Notes under the pieces: model-generated
The model's database searches: none
Told to the model about the DNA's origin: nothing
Seen by the model: the letters and a program-made list of their open reading frames with translations, nothing else
Made by a program: the position numbers and the translations under genes
Assembly (NCBI GenBank): GCA_018822105.1
Contig: JAHJLB010000006.1
Location: 1-51,839 of the forward strand
DNA length: 51,839 bases
Origin: Pseudomonadota bacterium
Lineage (GTDB): Bacteria; Desulfobacterota; Desulfovibrionia; Desulfovibrionales; Desulfovibrionaceae
Reading direction: 5' to 3'
Part shown: positions 26,575-49,140 of the stretch, piece after piece
How the letters are laid out: each line of letters starts with the position of its first letter
How positions within the stretch are numbered: position 1 is the first letter of the stretch

Positions 26575-26925
26575 ATGGGCAGAAAAATCCTGGTGACCCT
26601 CTACCGCGACGAAGTCTCCCCGCGCTTCGACCTGTGCTCCGAGGTGCTGCTGGTCAGCGTGGACGCCACGGGCCACGAGGTGCGCCGGCAGGATCTTGTG
26701 CTGGCCCACTCCAGCGCCGACGACCTCTGCGACCTCATCCTGGACCGCGAAGTGTCCGCGGTGCTCACCGGCGGCATCGAGGAGGAGCATTACCACTACC
26801 TGCGCTGGAAGCGCGTGGAGGTGGTCGACGCCGTGGCCGGGCTTGCCGGAGAGGCCCTGGGCAAGTATCTGAAAGGCGAACTGGCCTCTGGCGACATCCT
26901 TTTTGCGAGGCTCCCCGATGCGTAA
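26575..26925 (+). CDS. NifX/NifB C-terminal-like (dinitrogenase Fe-Mo cofactor family) protein
   Basis: The 116-residue single-domain protein matches the small ribonuclease-H-like fold of the NifX/NafY/NifB-tail family (PF02579). The pattern is an initial ILVTLYRDEVSPRFDLCSEVLLV, then an exposed TGGIEEEHYHYL loop and a C-terminal helix. NifX-type members hold iron-molybdenum cofactor precursors; others outside nif clusters have unknown roles. Here it lies between the degenerate AAA+ regulator and a histidine kinase, 8 bases overlapping the kinase start, and about 11 kb from nifH. A sensory or metal-cluster-binding role in signalling is possible. Confidence 0.82.
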   Translation: MGRKILVTLYRDEVSPRFDLCSEVLLVSVDATGHEVRRQDLVLAHSSADDLCDLILDREVSAVLTGGIEEEHYHYLRWKRVEVVDAVAGLAGEALGKYLKGELASGDILFARLPDA

Positions 26926-41412: not shown

Positions 41413-42786
41413 ATGTTGCTCAGACACACTCCCAAGGAAATCACGGAGCGCAGCGCCCTGGTCATCAACCCGGCCAAGACCTGCCAGCCCATCGGGGCCA
41501 TGTACGCCGCCCTCGGCATCCACGGCTGCCTGCCGCACAGCCACGGATCCCAGGGCTGCTGCGCCTACCACAGAAGCGCGCTGACCAAGCACTACAAGGA
41601 GCCCATCAGCGCCGCCACCAGCTCCTTCACCGAGGGCGCCAGCGTCTTCGGCGGCCAGGCCAACCTGCTCCAGGCCATCGAGAACATCTTCACGGTCTAC
41701 GAGCCGGAAGTCATCGCCGTGCACACCACCTGCCTGTCGGAGACCATCGGCGACGACATCAAGCAGATCCGCGACAAGGCGGAGAAGTCCGGCGTCGTGC
41801 CGGGGGGCAAGCATGTCATCTACTGCAACACGCCGAGCTACATCGGCTCCCACGTCACGGGCTTCTCGAACATGGTCAAGGGCATGACCGAGATAGCCGA
41901 GTCCACGGGCCGGAAGAACGGCAAGGTCAACGTCATTCCCGGCTGGGTCGAGCCCTCGGACATGGAGGAATTGAAGCGCCTGGCGGTGCTCATGAACGTG
42001 CCCATCACGCTCTTCCCGGACACCTCCGGCGTCTTGAACGGCCCGCTCTCCGGCGAGTTCAAGATGTTCCCAGAGGGCGGCGTGACCATGAAGGAGCTTA
42101 GAGAGGCCGGCGACGCCCTGGGCACCCTGGCCCTGGGCGAATGGTGCAGCGCCGACGCGGCGCGCAGCCTGGACACCCGCTGCAAGGTGCCCTGCCGCGT
42201 GCTGGACATGCCCTTTGGGCTCAAGGCCACGGACCGCTTTGTCGACGCCCTGCGGACCATCGCCGGCACGTCCGTGCCCGAGGAGATCACCCGCGAGCGC
42301 GGCCAGCTGGTGGACATGATCAGCGACTCCCACCAGTACTTCTACCAGAAGAAGGTGGCGCTCTTCGGCGACCCGGACCAGCTCATCAGCATGACCGAGT
42401 TCCTGGTGTCCATCGACATGTGGCCCATGCACCTGGTCACCGGCACCCCGGGCAAGAAGTTCGAGAAGCGCATAAATGAGCTCACCGCCCACCTGCCCTA
42501 TGAAGTCAACGTCCAGGCCGGCGGCGACATGTTCCTGCTGCACCAGTGGATCAAGAACGAGCCCGTGGACCTGCTCATGGGCAACACCTACGGCAAGTAC
42601 ATCGCCCGCGACGAGGACCTGCCCTTCCTGCGCTGGGGCTTCCCCATCCTGGACCGCGTGGGGCACCAGTACTTCCCCACGGTCGGGTACAAGGGCGGCC
42701 TGCGCCTCCTGGAGAAGATCCTGAGCCTGCTCCTGGACCGCAAGGACCGCGACGACTCCGAGACCGTGTTCGAGCTGACCCTGTAA
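41413..42786 (+). CDS. nifK: nitrogenase molybdenum-iron protein beta chain NifK
   Basis: The 457-residue subunit lacks the roughly 50-residue N-terminal extension of Azotobacter-type NifK, matching the short clostridial form and agreeing with the NifD insertion. P-cluster cysteines lie in NPAKTCQPIG, GSQGCCAYHR and HTTCLSETIGDD. It begins 13 bases after nifD and is followed by a 78-base gap with a very stable hairpin. It forms the alpha2-beta2 MoFe protein with NifD. Confidence 0.97.
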   Translation: MLLRHTPKEITERSALVINPAKTCQPIGAMYAALGIHGCLPHSHGSQGCCAYHRSALTKHYKEPISAATSSFTEGASVFGGQANLLQAIENIFTVYEPEVIAVHTTCLSETIGDDIKQIRDKAEKSGVVPGGKHVIYCNTPSYIGSHVTGFSNMVKGMTEIAESTGRKNGKVNVIPGWVEPSDMEELKRLAVLMNVPITLFPDTSGVLNGPLSGEFKMFPEGGVTMKELREAGDALGTLALGEWCSADAARSLDTRCKVPCRVLDMPFGLKATDRFVDALRTIAGTSVPEEITRERGQLVDMISDSHQYFYQKKVALFGDPDQLISMTEFLVSIDMWPMHLVTGTPGKKFEKRINELTAHLPYEVNVQAGGDMFLLHQWIKNEPVDLLMGNTYGKYIARDEDLPFLRWGFPILDRVGHQYFPTVGYKGGLRLLEKILSLLLDRKDRDDSETVFELTL

Positions 42787-42791
42787 CCACT

Positions 42792-42834
42792 CGGCCCCCC
42801 GGCCTGGGCACGCACTGCCCCGGCCGGGGGGCCG
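42792..42834 (+). other. very stable hairpin after nifK
   Basis: CGGCCCCCCGGCC (42792-42804) pairs perfectly with GGCCGGGGGGCCG (42822-42834). Past one mismatch, GGGCA pairs with TGCCC to leave a five-base loop. No T-run follows and the downstream genes continue in the same direction. It fits a processing or protection element that keeps nifHDK mRNA above the level of the cofactor-assembly genes. Confidence 0.75.
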
Positions 42835-42864
42835 GACAACCTTCTCCACAAACAGGAGCCGCCA

Positions 42865-44040
42865 ATGTCCGATGCCCGTCCCCACCCCTGCTTCGCCGCG
42901 GATGCCCGCGCGTCCGCCGGGCGCATCCACCTGCCCGTGGCCGCCAAGCACACCATCCGCCGCCGCTTTGGCGAGCCCGAGACCCCCGGCCGCGCCCTGT
43001 CGCCCAAGGACGTGGTCCAGTGGCTGGACCGCGTGCTGGCCGAGGGCACGAGCATAGCCATGGTCGGCGTCAGCGGCCCCGGCGAGCCCCTGGCCGAGCC
43101 CGGCCCGACCTTTGAGGCCCTGCGCGCCGTGCGCGAGAAGCACCCGGAGCTGGCCCTGACCCTGGCCACCAACGGCCTTTCCGCGGCACAGCACGCGGCC
43201 GGGCTGGCCGAGTTGGGCCTGTCCCATGTCACAGTGCTGGTGGACGCAGTGGACCCCCTCATCGTGGAGCAGCTCTATGCCTGGATACGCCCCGGCACGC
43301 GCACCCTGCCCCTGCCCGAGGCCGCGCGCCTGCTGGTGGACGAGCAGGCGCGCACCATCCGCGCCTTCCGCGAGGCCGGGCATTTCGTCAAGGTGAACAT
43401 GACCGTCATCGCAGGCATCAACGAGGAGCACGTGGCCGACGTGGCCAGCGTGGTGGCCACCCTGGGCGCGGACATGCTGGCCCTGGTGCCCTTCCACCCC
43501 GCCTGCTGCGACCCGGCCGCCCCCAAGGCCCCGGACGCCGCGCGCATGGAGGAGCTGCGCCGGGAGGCCAAGCGCTACATCGCCATCATGCCTGCCTTTG
43601 ACTCATGCGGTCAGAGCATTGTCGGGCTGGAGCGCGGCGGTCTCGACCTTTCCCCGGCGGACGCGGCCCTGCCCAGGCCACTGGGCGCTCGGATCAACGT
43701 GGCCGTGGCCAGCGCAAACGGCCTGGATGTGGACCTGCACCTGGGCCAGGCCATCCGCTTCCTCATCTTCGGCCCCCGCGAGAGCGACGGCCTGCCGAGC
43801 CTGCTGGGCTCACGCGAGGCTCCGGAGCCTGGCGGCGGGGACACCCGCTGGGAGGCCCTGGCCGAGTCCCTGCCCGACTGCTTCGCCATCCTGGCCGCCA
43901 GCGCAGGGGCGCACCCCCGCGAGCTTCTGGCCGCGCACGGCCTCACCGTGCTCACCGGCGAGGCCCAGATCCAGGGCGCGGTGGACGCGCTCTTCGGCGG
44001 GGGCAAGAAACAGTGCAAGAAACGCGTGAAGGCCAATTGA
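42865..44040 (+). CDS. NifB paralogue lacking the radical-SAM cysteines, with NifX-like tail
   Basis: The 391-residue protein aligns with the true NifB at 47842 over its length: HPCF near the start, GRIHLPVAAK, GVSGPGEPLAEP, LALTLATNGLS, VKVNMTVIAGINEEHV, and a C-terminal NifX-like domain (about 275-385). But the three [4Fe-4S] cysteines of radical-SAM enzymes (Cys34, 38 and 41 of NifB) are replaced by His29, Arg33 and Gly36. The CRRC segment of NifB is reduced to one Cys. It is therefore unlikely to cleave SAM, while the barrel and cofactor-tail domain remain. It is an intact frame with a strong ribosome site (AGGAG). Possible roles are a NifB-co or precursor carrier or scaffold, in place of a missing nifX gene. 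Confidence 0.88.
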   Translation: MSDARPHPCFAADARASAGRIHLPVAAKHTIRRRFGEPETPGRALSPKDVVQWLDRVLAEGTSIAMVGVSGPGEPLAEPGPTFEALRAVREKHPELALTLATNGLSAAQHAAGLAELGLSHVTVLVDAVDPLIVEQLYAWIRPGTRTLPLPEAARLLVDEQARTIRAFREAGHFVKVNMTVIAGINEEHVADVASVVATLGADMLALVPFHPACCDPAAPKAPDAARMEELRREAKRYIAIMPAFDSCGQSIVGLERGGLDLSPADAALPRPLGARINVAVASANGLDVDLHLGQAIRFLIFGPRESDGLPSLLGSREAPEPGGGDTRWEALAESLPDCFAILAASAGAHPRELLAAHGLTVLTGEAQIQGAVDALFGGGKKQCKKRVKAN

Positions 44041-44099: not shown

Positions 44100-44402
44100 A
44101 TGGCCCTGCCCGAAACACTCATCCTCGTCTGCCAGAGCTTCCGCCTGGGCAAGGAGCCCAAGGGCATCTGCCACAAGCAGACCGACGGCCTGCTGCAATA
44201 CATCGAGGAAGGCATCCTGGACCGCGGCCTGGACGTGCAGGTGGCCACCACCGGCTGCCTCAAGCAGTGCGAAAAGGGCCCCATCCTTGTCATCCAGCCG
44301 GACAACCTCTGGTTCAAGGGCGTGAACAGCGAAGAGGCCATCGACGCCATCCTGGACGGCCTGGAGGCGGGCGAGCCTGCCGCCGAGTACCTGCTGTCCT
44401 AG
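44100..44402 (+). CDS. thioredoxin-like [2Fe-2S] ferredoxin of the nif operon
   Basis: The 100-residue protein has the four cysteines of the thioredoxin-like ferredoxin family: C-X12-C (Cys11 to Cys24 in LVCQSFRLGKEPKGICHK) and C-X3-C in TTGCLKQCEKGP. Members from Clostridium pasteurianum and Azotobacter (FeSII and FdI-type) bind nitrogenase, in some cases protecting it or passing electrons. Its position between the NifB paralogue and nifE suggests electron supply to cofactor assembly or nitrogenase. CAAGGAG precedes the ATG. Confidence 0.92.
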   Translation: MALPETLILVCQSFRLGKEPKGICHKQTDGLLQYIEEGILDRGLDVQVATTGCLKQCEKGPILVIQPDNLWFKGVNSEEAIDAILDGLEAGEPAAEYLLS

Positions 44403-47841: not shown

Positions 47842-49140
47842 ATGCAGACGATACTCGCGCCTTCCTCCGTCAAGCACCCCTGCTTCAACAAGGAGTCTTC
47901 CGGCACCTGCGGCCGCGTACACCTGCCCGTGGCGCCCAAGTGCAACATCCAGTGCAACTACTGCAACAGGAAGTACGACTGCGTGAACGAGTCGCGCCCG
48001 GGCGTCACCAGCGGCGTCCTGAAGCCCTTCCAGGCCCTGGAGTACACCCGCCAGGTGCTGGACAAGGAGCCGCGCATCACGGTGGTCGGCATCGCCGGAC
48101 CCGGCGACCCCATGGCCAATCCGGCGGAGACGCTGGAGACCATGCGCCTCATCCGCCGCGAATACCCGCACATGCTCTTCTGCCTGTCGTCCAACGGCCT
48201 GGCCATGCCCGAATATCTGGACGACCTGGCCGAACTCGGCGTGACCCACGCCACGGTGACGCTGAACACAGTGGACCCGGCCATCGGCGCGCAGGTCTAT
48301 TCCTGGGTGCGCGACGGCAATGTGGTCTACCGCGGCCAGGCCGCGGCGGAGCTCATCCTGGACCGCCAGCTCAAGGCCATCGCCGGGCTCAAGGCGCGGG
48401 GGCTGGCCGTGAAGGTGAACACCATCGTCATCCCCGGCGTCAACGACCAGCCCGGGACCTCCGGGAACATCCTGGCCGTGGCCAAGGCGGCCTGCGAACT
48501 GGGCGTGGACCTCATGAACCTCATGCCCATGCACCCCAACGAGGGCACGCCCTTCGGGCACCTGAGCGAACCCACCAAGGCCCAGATCGACCAGCTGCGC
48601 GCCGAGGCCGGGCCCCTGGTGCCCCAGATGACCCACTGCCGCCGCTGCCGGGCCGACGCCGTGGGCCTGTTGTGCGCCGACCGCTCCGGCGAGCTGGGAG
48701 GCGTGCTGGCCGCCTGCGGCAAGCTGCCCCCTCAGGCCCAGAACGACCGCCCGTATATCGCCGTGGCCAGCCGCGAAGGGCTCCTGGTGAACCTGCACCT
48801 GGGCGAGGCCAAGCGCTTCCATATCTGGGGGCTGGCCGAAGGCGGCGGCTTCCGCATGATCGAAGAGCGCCAGGCCCCGTCGGCGGGCTGCGGCCCCTCG
48901 CGCTGGGAGGATCTGGCGCGCCTGCTGGGCGACTGCCGGGCCGTGCTGGTCAGCGCCCTGGGCGATGCCCCGCGCAGGATCCTGACCGAGCGCGGCGTGC
49001 AGCCCGCCACCTGCTCCGGGTTCATTGAGGACGCCCTGGCCCTGGCCTTTGGCGAGGACGGCCTGGCGCGATTGGAGACGCTCAAGGCCCGGAACGGAGG
49101 CCTTGGCAAGTCCTGCTGCGGCACGGGCGACGGCTGCTAG
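47842..49140 (+). CDS. nifB: nitrogenase cofactor biosynthesis radical-SAM enzyme NifB
   Basis: The 432-residue protein has the complete radical-SAM motif CNIQCNYC (Cys34, 38, 41), the SAM-binding GIAGPGDP, and the NifB-specific HPCF and HCRRCRADAVG cysteines that help hold the K-cluster precursors. A C-terminal NifX-like domain (about 300-420) follows, ending in a Cys/Gly tail (CCGTGDGC). It fuses two [4Fe-4S] units with carbide insertion to make NifB-co, which goes to NifEN. It is the last gene of the nif run. AAAGGAG precedes the ATG. Confidence 0.97.
   Translation: MQTILAPSSVKHPCFNKESSGTCGRVHLPVAPKCNIQCNYCNRKYDCVNESRPGVTSGVLKPFQALEYTRQVLDKEPRITVVGIAGPGDPMANPAETLETMRLIRREYPHMLFCLSSNGLAMPEYLDDLAELGVTHATVTLNTVDPAIGAQVYSWVRDGNVVYRGQAAAELILDRQLKAIAGLKARGLAVKVNTIVIPGVNDQPGTSGNILAVAKAACELGVDLMNLMPMHPNEGTPFGHLSEPTKAQIDQLRAEAGPLVPQMTHCRRCRADAVGLLCADRSGELGGVLAACGKLPPQAQNDRPYIAVASREGLLVNLHLGEAKRFHIWGLAEGGGFRMIEERQAPSAGCGPSRWEDLARLLGDCRAVLVSALGDAPRRILTERGVQPATCSGFIEDALALAFGEDGLARLETLKARNGGLGKSCCGTGDGC

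Follow-up and report, generated by a model that had tools for sequence, protein, structure and literature searches.

NifB is the known source of NifB-co, and it is counted among the marker genes of diazotrophy. The two-domain bacterial protein (TIGR01290), whose barrel is represented by the structures 6y1x, 7bi7 and 7jmb, is held to have arisen by fusion with nifX (PMC3733012). In the M. acetivorans enzyme the SAM cluster is held by Cys50, Cys54 and Cys57, K1 by Cys30, Cys63, Cys129 and His43, and K2 by Cys264, Cys274 and Cys277 (PMC7145814). Carriers of the NifX type use a histidine: the cryo-EM structure of NifEN with NifX shows His35 of NifX as the ligand of NifB-co (PMC13128457), the cofactor being bound by this residue and not by the conserved Cys82, while NafY uses His121 (PMC11938142). 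In A. vinelandii nifX is dispensable, and the C terminus of its product binds a positive patch of NifE (PMC13128457).

Sequences that look like NifB and lack its radical-SAM motif have left traces in earlier work. Among 390 putative NifBs in one survey, 28% were removed, most of them without CxxxCxxC and taken as NifX (PMC5715403). The nif clusters of Pseudodesulfovibrio have been listed with nifB_1 and nifB_2, each described as a NifB protein for scaffold and assembly, and the accessible text mentions neither a lost site nor its conservation (PMC11505543). Since Pseudodesulfovibrio loci belong to the set assembled below, one of these two genes is very likely the paralogue described here. Our literature search, which extended mainly over open papers and over main texts as far as accessible, returned no description of a NifB without the radical-SAM site in nif operons. 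Such a twin is easily annotated as NifB, and is the sort of sequence that is filtered from NifB surveys. We found here that the nif operons of many sulfate reducers, judged by their sequences, hold a second NifB copy which has lost its catalytic metal site and is kept by selection.

The paralogue, its operon and the site of the lost cluster

The window is the whole stretch of DNA analysed, 51,839 nucleotides from a Desulfovibrionaceae genome, and coordinates given without a locus name refer to its forward strand. Its nif operon runs nifH-nifI1-nifI2-nifD-nifK, then the paralogue, a [2Fe-2S] ferredoxin-like gene, a small ORF, nifE, nifN and nifB. The paralogue (42865..44040, 391 aa) combines an N-terminal barrel of the NifB type with a C-terminal NifX-like domain. 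Upstream lies nifK (41413..42786); downstream is the ferredoxin-like gene (44100..44402), which has an NCBIfam match at E 5e-10, under the family cut-off, and whose N. vulgaris counterpart is annotated as a (2Fe-2S) ferredoxin. The true nifB, with CxxxCxxC intact, follows at 47842..49140. The first-pass annotation had described a NifB paralogue with a destroyed radical-SAM site, an intact frame, a good ribosome site and resemblance to NifB from end to end, and each of these points is upheld: the frame is unbroken from its ATG, with AGGAG upstream, the two proteins are 35% identical over 395 aligned columns (E 7e-73), and the columns of NifB C34, C38 and C41 hold His29, Arg33 and Gly36 (42949..42972), leaving no CxxxCxxC. 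Both Pfam Radical_SAM and Nitro_FeMo-Co score the paralogue above their cut-offs. Against the NifB model TIGR01290 it reaches 165.8 bits, under the cut-off of 343.65, and the true NifB 375.4.

For the other ligands we mapped the M. acetivorans numbering onto the window's NifB by motif and spacing, which places the SAM-cluster ligands at C34, C38 and C41, K1 at C14, C47, C114 and H27, and K2 at C266 and C269; no counterpart of M. acetivorans Cys264 was found in the window's NifB by this mapping. In the paralogue C47 is deleted together with the ExRP stretch, C114 has become Thr99 and C266 Phe245. NifB C14, H27, C269 and H319 are retained as C9, H22, C248 and H292. The first of these cysteines lies in an HPCF segment (H7-F10, 42883..42894) that preserves the HPC motif as H7-P8-C9, and by our mapping it stands at the K1 ligand Cys30 in the numbering of the M. 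acetivorans enzyme (PMC7145814). C248 (43606..43608) is the second cysteine of the NifB CxxC, near NifB residue 266, the first being Phe245, so that Cx2CRxDAxG reads FDSCGQSIVG. TxTxN is likewise broken, and the GPGEP loop (residues 71-75, 43075..43089) has kept GPG and lost the alanine of AGPG, reading SGPG. The NifX-like domain (residues ~276-378, 43690..43998) matches PF02579. Within it H292 (43738..43740) falls on NifX His35, the NifB-co ligand, in the PDB alignment, and C339 (43879..43881) on Cys82 by our count.

An AlphaFold2 model of the window's protein, built with the family alignment (mean pLDDT 88), recovers the NifB barrel: residues 4-243 superpose on 6y1x_A with a Z score of 30.6 and an rmsd of 2.2 over 237 residues, and the best other radical-SAM enzyme reaches Z 19.2. 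Foldseek matched NifX 9ian_F with a TM-score of 0.60 by target. The model of a Desulfobulbia member (pLDDT 81) gave Z 28.0 and rmsd 2.0 over 226 residues of 6y1x. Both models thus retain the NifB fold, although a common fold does not show function, and because GPG and the barrel are kept, SAM or another ligand could still bind.

The gene therefore shares with NifB the barrel fold, the GPG(D/E)P loop, the order of domains, the NifX-like C-terminal domain and the nif operon, and differs from it in the lost motifs, in the score and in a tail that is basic rather than Cys-rich. With NifX (9ian) it has in common the NifX fold, the counterparts of His35 and Cys82 and a VDxH motif. Unlike NifX, it has a NifB barrel of 270 residues ahead of this domain and a basic tail, and it groups beside NifB in trees built without free-standing NifX from outside these operons. 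NafY and NifY have a comparable plan of a docking domain followed by a NifX-like cofactor domain (His121 in NafY; PMC11938142), but the first domain here is predicted to be a dead NifB barrel instead of a sterile-alpha-motif domain.

The spacer behind nifK (42787..42864) contains the ribosome site and a GC-rich hairpin of -49.9 kcal/mol (z -6.2) without a T run. Relatives have hairpins of differing sequence at this place, 61 of 71 at or below -20 kcal/mol with length and GC content uncontrolled. Perhaps the structure acts as an mRNA stabiliser behind nifHDK.

Distribution among sulfate reducers and cable bacteria

A NifB-like match, either true NifB or paralogue, occurs in 149 of 288 genomes of the family. 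From the family hits we picked 92 stretches in 89 genomes, in most cases because two matches were present. With the window and two plasmid stretches of N. vulgaris added, they yielded 73 paralogue ORFs, namely 68 of full length (window included), four with the NifX domain only and one contig-edge fragment excluded from the full-length counts. That fragment (L150 3-503) comes from another genus (g36) and is 67% identical to the window's paralogue, possibly through transfer or contamination. A draw of 395 genomes from the phylum gave 114 with a match, and at least 14 from other classes show a further match of the paralogue type; the figure is a lower bound, as the examined stretches leave out G352 and perhaps other genomes with one high-scoring match. 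All 14 show the order nifK-paralogue-ferredoxin. Scanning genome contigs with a single protein as query found no relatives, and a family-profile scan of 84,980 species genomes found 140, of which 80 were analysed. In 75 of these 80 loci nifK precedes and the ferredoxin gene follows. The five others end at a contig edge (L215, L180), have no recognised gene upstream (L231), or have nifI2 before (L237) or nifD after (L241). After removal of 16 duplicates, the 68, 14 and 80 sequences make 146 distinct full-length paralogues, which we compared with 112 NifBs (11 duplicate NifBs removed).

Four classes are represented, Desulfovibrionia, Desulfobulbia (including cable bacteria), Desulfarculia and Desulfobacteria, with the genera Pseudodesulfovibrio, Humidesulfovibrio, Desulfobulbus, Desulfopila, Desulfosediminicola, Desulfocarbo and Desulfamplus and the cable bacteria Electronema and Electrothrix. 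Among five genomes examined from a related family, f4, four have only a NifX domain (112-128 aa) in the slot and the fifth has nothing there. The paralogue was absent from the nif stretches on the plasmids of N. vulgaris RCH1 and DP4, the two of three N. vulgaris records examined among the 30 listed of 244 in a plasmid search that also supplied three ordinary NifBs as an outgroup. D. vulgaris Hildenborough, a strain of the same species, grows on N2 with its nif cluster and needs DVUA0007-DVUA0016, one of them without data, to do so (PMC10102598). Since nif clusters without the paralogue occur also in an N2-fixing species, the paralogue is not universally needed.

The first-pass annotation had further suggested that the protein replaces a missing nifX. 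The sequences do not establish this. nifX is mostly not seen in the examined nif stretches of sulfate reducers and cable bacteria, and a full-length paralogue and a small NifX-domain ORF occur together in only two genomes (G637, G488) among these stretches. Clusters with neither gene exist, however, and PF02579 has seven further matches in the window's own genome. One further PF02579 protein (26608-26871) lies in the window outside the nif operon, and its translation lacks the NifX-type H-x-G histidine. Small free NifX-like ORFs stand right after nifB at L157 814-1128 and L174 855-1175, in two genomes that both have the paralogue.

Residues, selection and descent

All nine cluster-ligand residues checked are present in 111 of the 112 NifBs and in none of the 146 paralogues. 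Radical-SAM cysteines number none in 127 paralogues, one in 17 and three in two (L051 and L052), which lack other ligands. E50 of ExRP falls in a gap in 136, and the T140 column of TxTxN is Leu in 114. K1- and K2-type residues fade: C14, the HPC cysteine, is kept in 110 (the HPC histidine in 52), H27 in 65, C114 in 57 and C269 in 64. By contrast with these losses, the GPG of the SAM loop is retained almost throughout (G 144, P 144, G 145), as are the NifX histidine (146) and the Cys82 counterpart (145). Two residues before that histidine the paralogues have Asp in 140 cases, whereas 111 of the 112 NifBs have Asn, so that the usual reading is a carrier-like VDxHLG instead of VNxHLG; NifX itself reads VDQHFG. 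Asp is also present in the four NifX-only proteins and in L051 and L052, and the six paralogues of the Asn type are L056, L120, L127, L128, L141 and L205. As two outgroup NifBs have Asn and one has Asp, the DxH mark is strong in the phylum and not absolute. The tails differ as well: at least four Lys/Arg occur among the last 15 residues of 139/146 paralogues and 0/112 NifBs, and at least two Cys in 1/146 and 109/112, respectively. In nearly all of 64 paralogues 33 of 106 NifB-invariant columns are gone, while 20 columns are invariant among the 68 paralogue rows, with R142 invariant and W140 and P143 nearly so.

The sole NifB without the full ligand set, B_L064, is a split frame. At L064 6011-7407 a second nifB of genome G006, split into two overlapping frames near distant nifDK-like genes, has Asp and not Asn before the NifX histidine. 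Seven genus members (L041, L042, L043, L044, L045, L046 and L047) lack HPCF. In the loop that follows barrel strand 204-209, which reads PACCDP in the window, they carry a long Cys-rich insert with four to six cysteines (for example CxxxCASCG).

Selection was gauged by Nei-Gojobori counts on 15 pairs of our own choosing, some sharing a member, so that the values are rough. The paralogue gave dN/dS of 0.07-0.43 in all 14 pairs that returned a value, with a range of 0.08-0.51 in the barrel and of 0.03-0.29 in the NifX domain, which was the more constrained in 13 of the 14. Only the window with its nearest relative departs from this (NifX domain 0.29, barrel 0.26), a pair in which paralogue (0.27) and NifB (0.28) are about equal; elsewhere the paralogue mostly exceeds NifB (12 of 14 pairs, or 13 of 14 for the barrel alone). 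Four of five pairs from other classes gave 0.18-0.23 and the fifth was saturated. Sequencing error and recent pseudogene formation were rejected, as the three cysteines are missing from all 11 further full-length members of the genus that were examined, which with the window makes 12 of 12, and their frames are intact. Close relatives with intact cysteines under relaxed selection were looked for and not found. The view of the first-pass annotation that this is a non-catalytic NifB is thereby supported, as are its conservation and selection: 127 of the 146 paralogues have none of the three cysteines, none has all nine ligands, and dN/dS is below 1 wherever computable, in keeping with purifying selection.

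In three quick trees, which sampled 38/68, 22/68 and 48/146 paralogues and have several long rows that make the inner order less sure, the paralogues fall on one side of a branch with support of 99-100. Members from Desulfobulbia, Desulfarculia and Desulfobacteria nest within the diversity of the Desulfovibrionaceae paralogues, which suggests from the sequences that the operon spread horizontally. The NifX-only genes of f4 are placed among the paralogues and not beside their own NifBs; tree and operon place favour reading them as truncated paralogues, although approximately unbiased (AU) tests rejected none of three alternatives (full-length paralogues as their own clade, p 0.42; NifX-only genes with all NifBs, 0.44; NifX-only genes with their own NifBs, 0.09). 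Simple stepwise decay from ancestors with the radical-SAM site intact was also considered and discarded, because L051 and L052 have its cysteines with other ligands gone, meaning that the losses differed from line to line. Asn before the NifX histidine persists in L056 and L141, which likewise lie near the base, where the branch order is only partly supported.

Readings of function

On balance we lean towards the view that a nifB duplicate lost cluster assembly and was retained as a nitrogenase cofactor chaperone. It would be an old, catalytically dead NifB paralogue that chaperones NifB-co or FeMo-co, either of which may be the cargo, in the manner of NifX or NafY. nifY adjoins nifDK, and the slot of the paralogue recalls nifY, just as its two-domain plan recalls NafY and its DxH motif NifX. 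The NifX-like domain would bind the cofactor through H292, as NifX does through His35 and NafY through His121, and the empty NifB barrel would, by analogy with two-domain NafY, serve for docking and so deliver the NifX-like domain to NifB, NifEN or apo-NifDK. The proposal of a NifB-co carrier in the first-pass annotation is strengthened in so far as H292 is invariant and the DxH motif prevails, with the function itself still read from sequence. Against a carrier, however, stand the nif clusters that lack the gene, the dispensability of nifX in A. vinelandii, the six paralogues with Asn and the outgroup NifB with Asp, the nearest pair of the window, in which constraint on the NifX domain does not exceed that on the barrel, and a basic tail unlike the C terminus of A. 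vinelandii NifX. Moreover, the NifX-domain histidine is invariant in true NifB too, and so is by itself no proof of a free carrier.

For a carrier the NifX domain would suffice, as four f4 genomes show, yet the full barrel is under purifying selection (dN/dS 0.08-0.51) and its fold persists in a distant class. These points speak for a pseudoenzyme whose inactive barrel forms a pair with the active NifB (or with NifEN) to tune or stabilise this partner, and for which binding of the cofactor is a secondary matter. We think this unlikely, given that the NifX domain is more constrained in 13 of 14 pairs and that the f4 genes manage without a barrel. Less probable again is a carrier of Fe-S precursors, in which half a K1 site (C9, H22, the C114 column and C248) would hold a [4Fe-4S] or 8Fe cluster and feed NifB. 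The four residues occur together in 43 of 68 family members, and genus members that lost some of them have new Cys-rich loops. The half-site convinced as a conserved function within the family but failed in the wider set, where all four are found in only 46 of 146 and none in 26; together with the Thr of the window at the C114 column, this means that Fe-S carriage cannot be the general function, and we retain it as a rival only.

Two further readings carry very little weight with us. The loss of 33 of 106 NifB-invariant columns and a dN/dS higher than in NifB for 12 of 14 pairs (13 of 14 for the barrel) would suit a slowly decaying duplicate retained only through operon structure, but the intact frames of 146 members from several classes, the invariance of 20 columns among 68 rows, dN/dS below 1 wherever computable and the new conserved marks, DxH and basic tail, make that highly improbable. 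No more credible is another chemistry in the barrel, an enzyme using the GPG(D/E)P loop without an Fe-S cluster: GPG persists in 144-145 of 146 and R142, W140 and P143 are invariant or nearly so, yet all of these may stabilise the fold, and there is no recognisable cofactor site.

If the paralogue is indeed a cofactor chaperone, it would supply a missing step in the way anaerobic sulfate reducers and cable bacteria move their cofactor, show a route from enzyme to carrier and offer a natural docking module for the engineering of nitrogenase assembly. More speculatively, and with rather less confidence, we can imagine that nitrogen fixers of an entire branch derive their cofactor carrier from a NifB that is no longer active. 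Its NifX domain would have turned to the carrier type, with the radical-SAM and cluster sites lost, and the dead barrel would address the protein to NifB, NifEN or NifDK, one family having shed this barrel to leave a free NifX-like protein. If true, this would be a living series that shows how NifB can give rise to chaperones of the NifX type, opposite in direction to the accepted fusion of nifB and nifX (PMC3733012).

Another arrangement of NifB was noticed alongside. Proteins of 907-959 aa at L255 6033-8756, L256 4891-7650 and L257 2437-5316 have NifN as their first half and NifB as their second, and they sit in two family genomes of genus g44 and in genome G600 of the phylum; in the accessible text of an earlier survey, NifN-NifB fusions are said to be confined to Firmicutes (PMC5715403).
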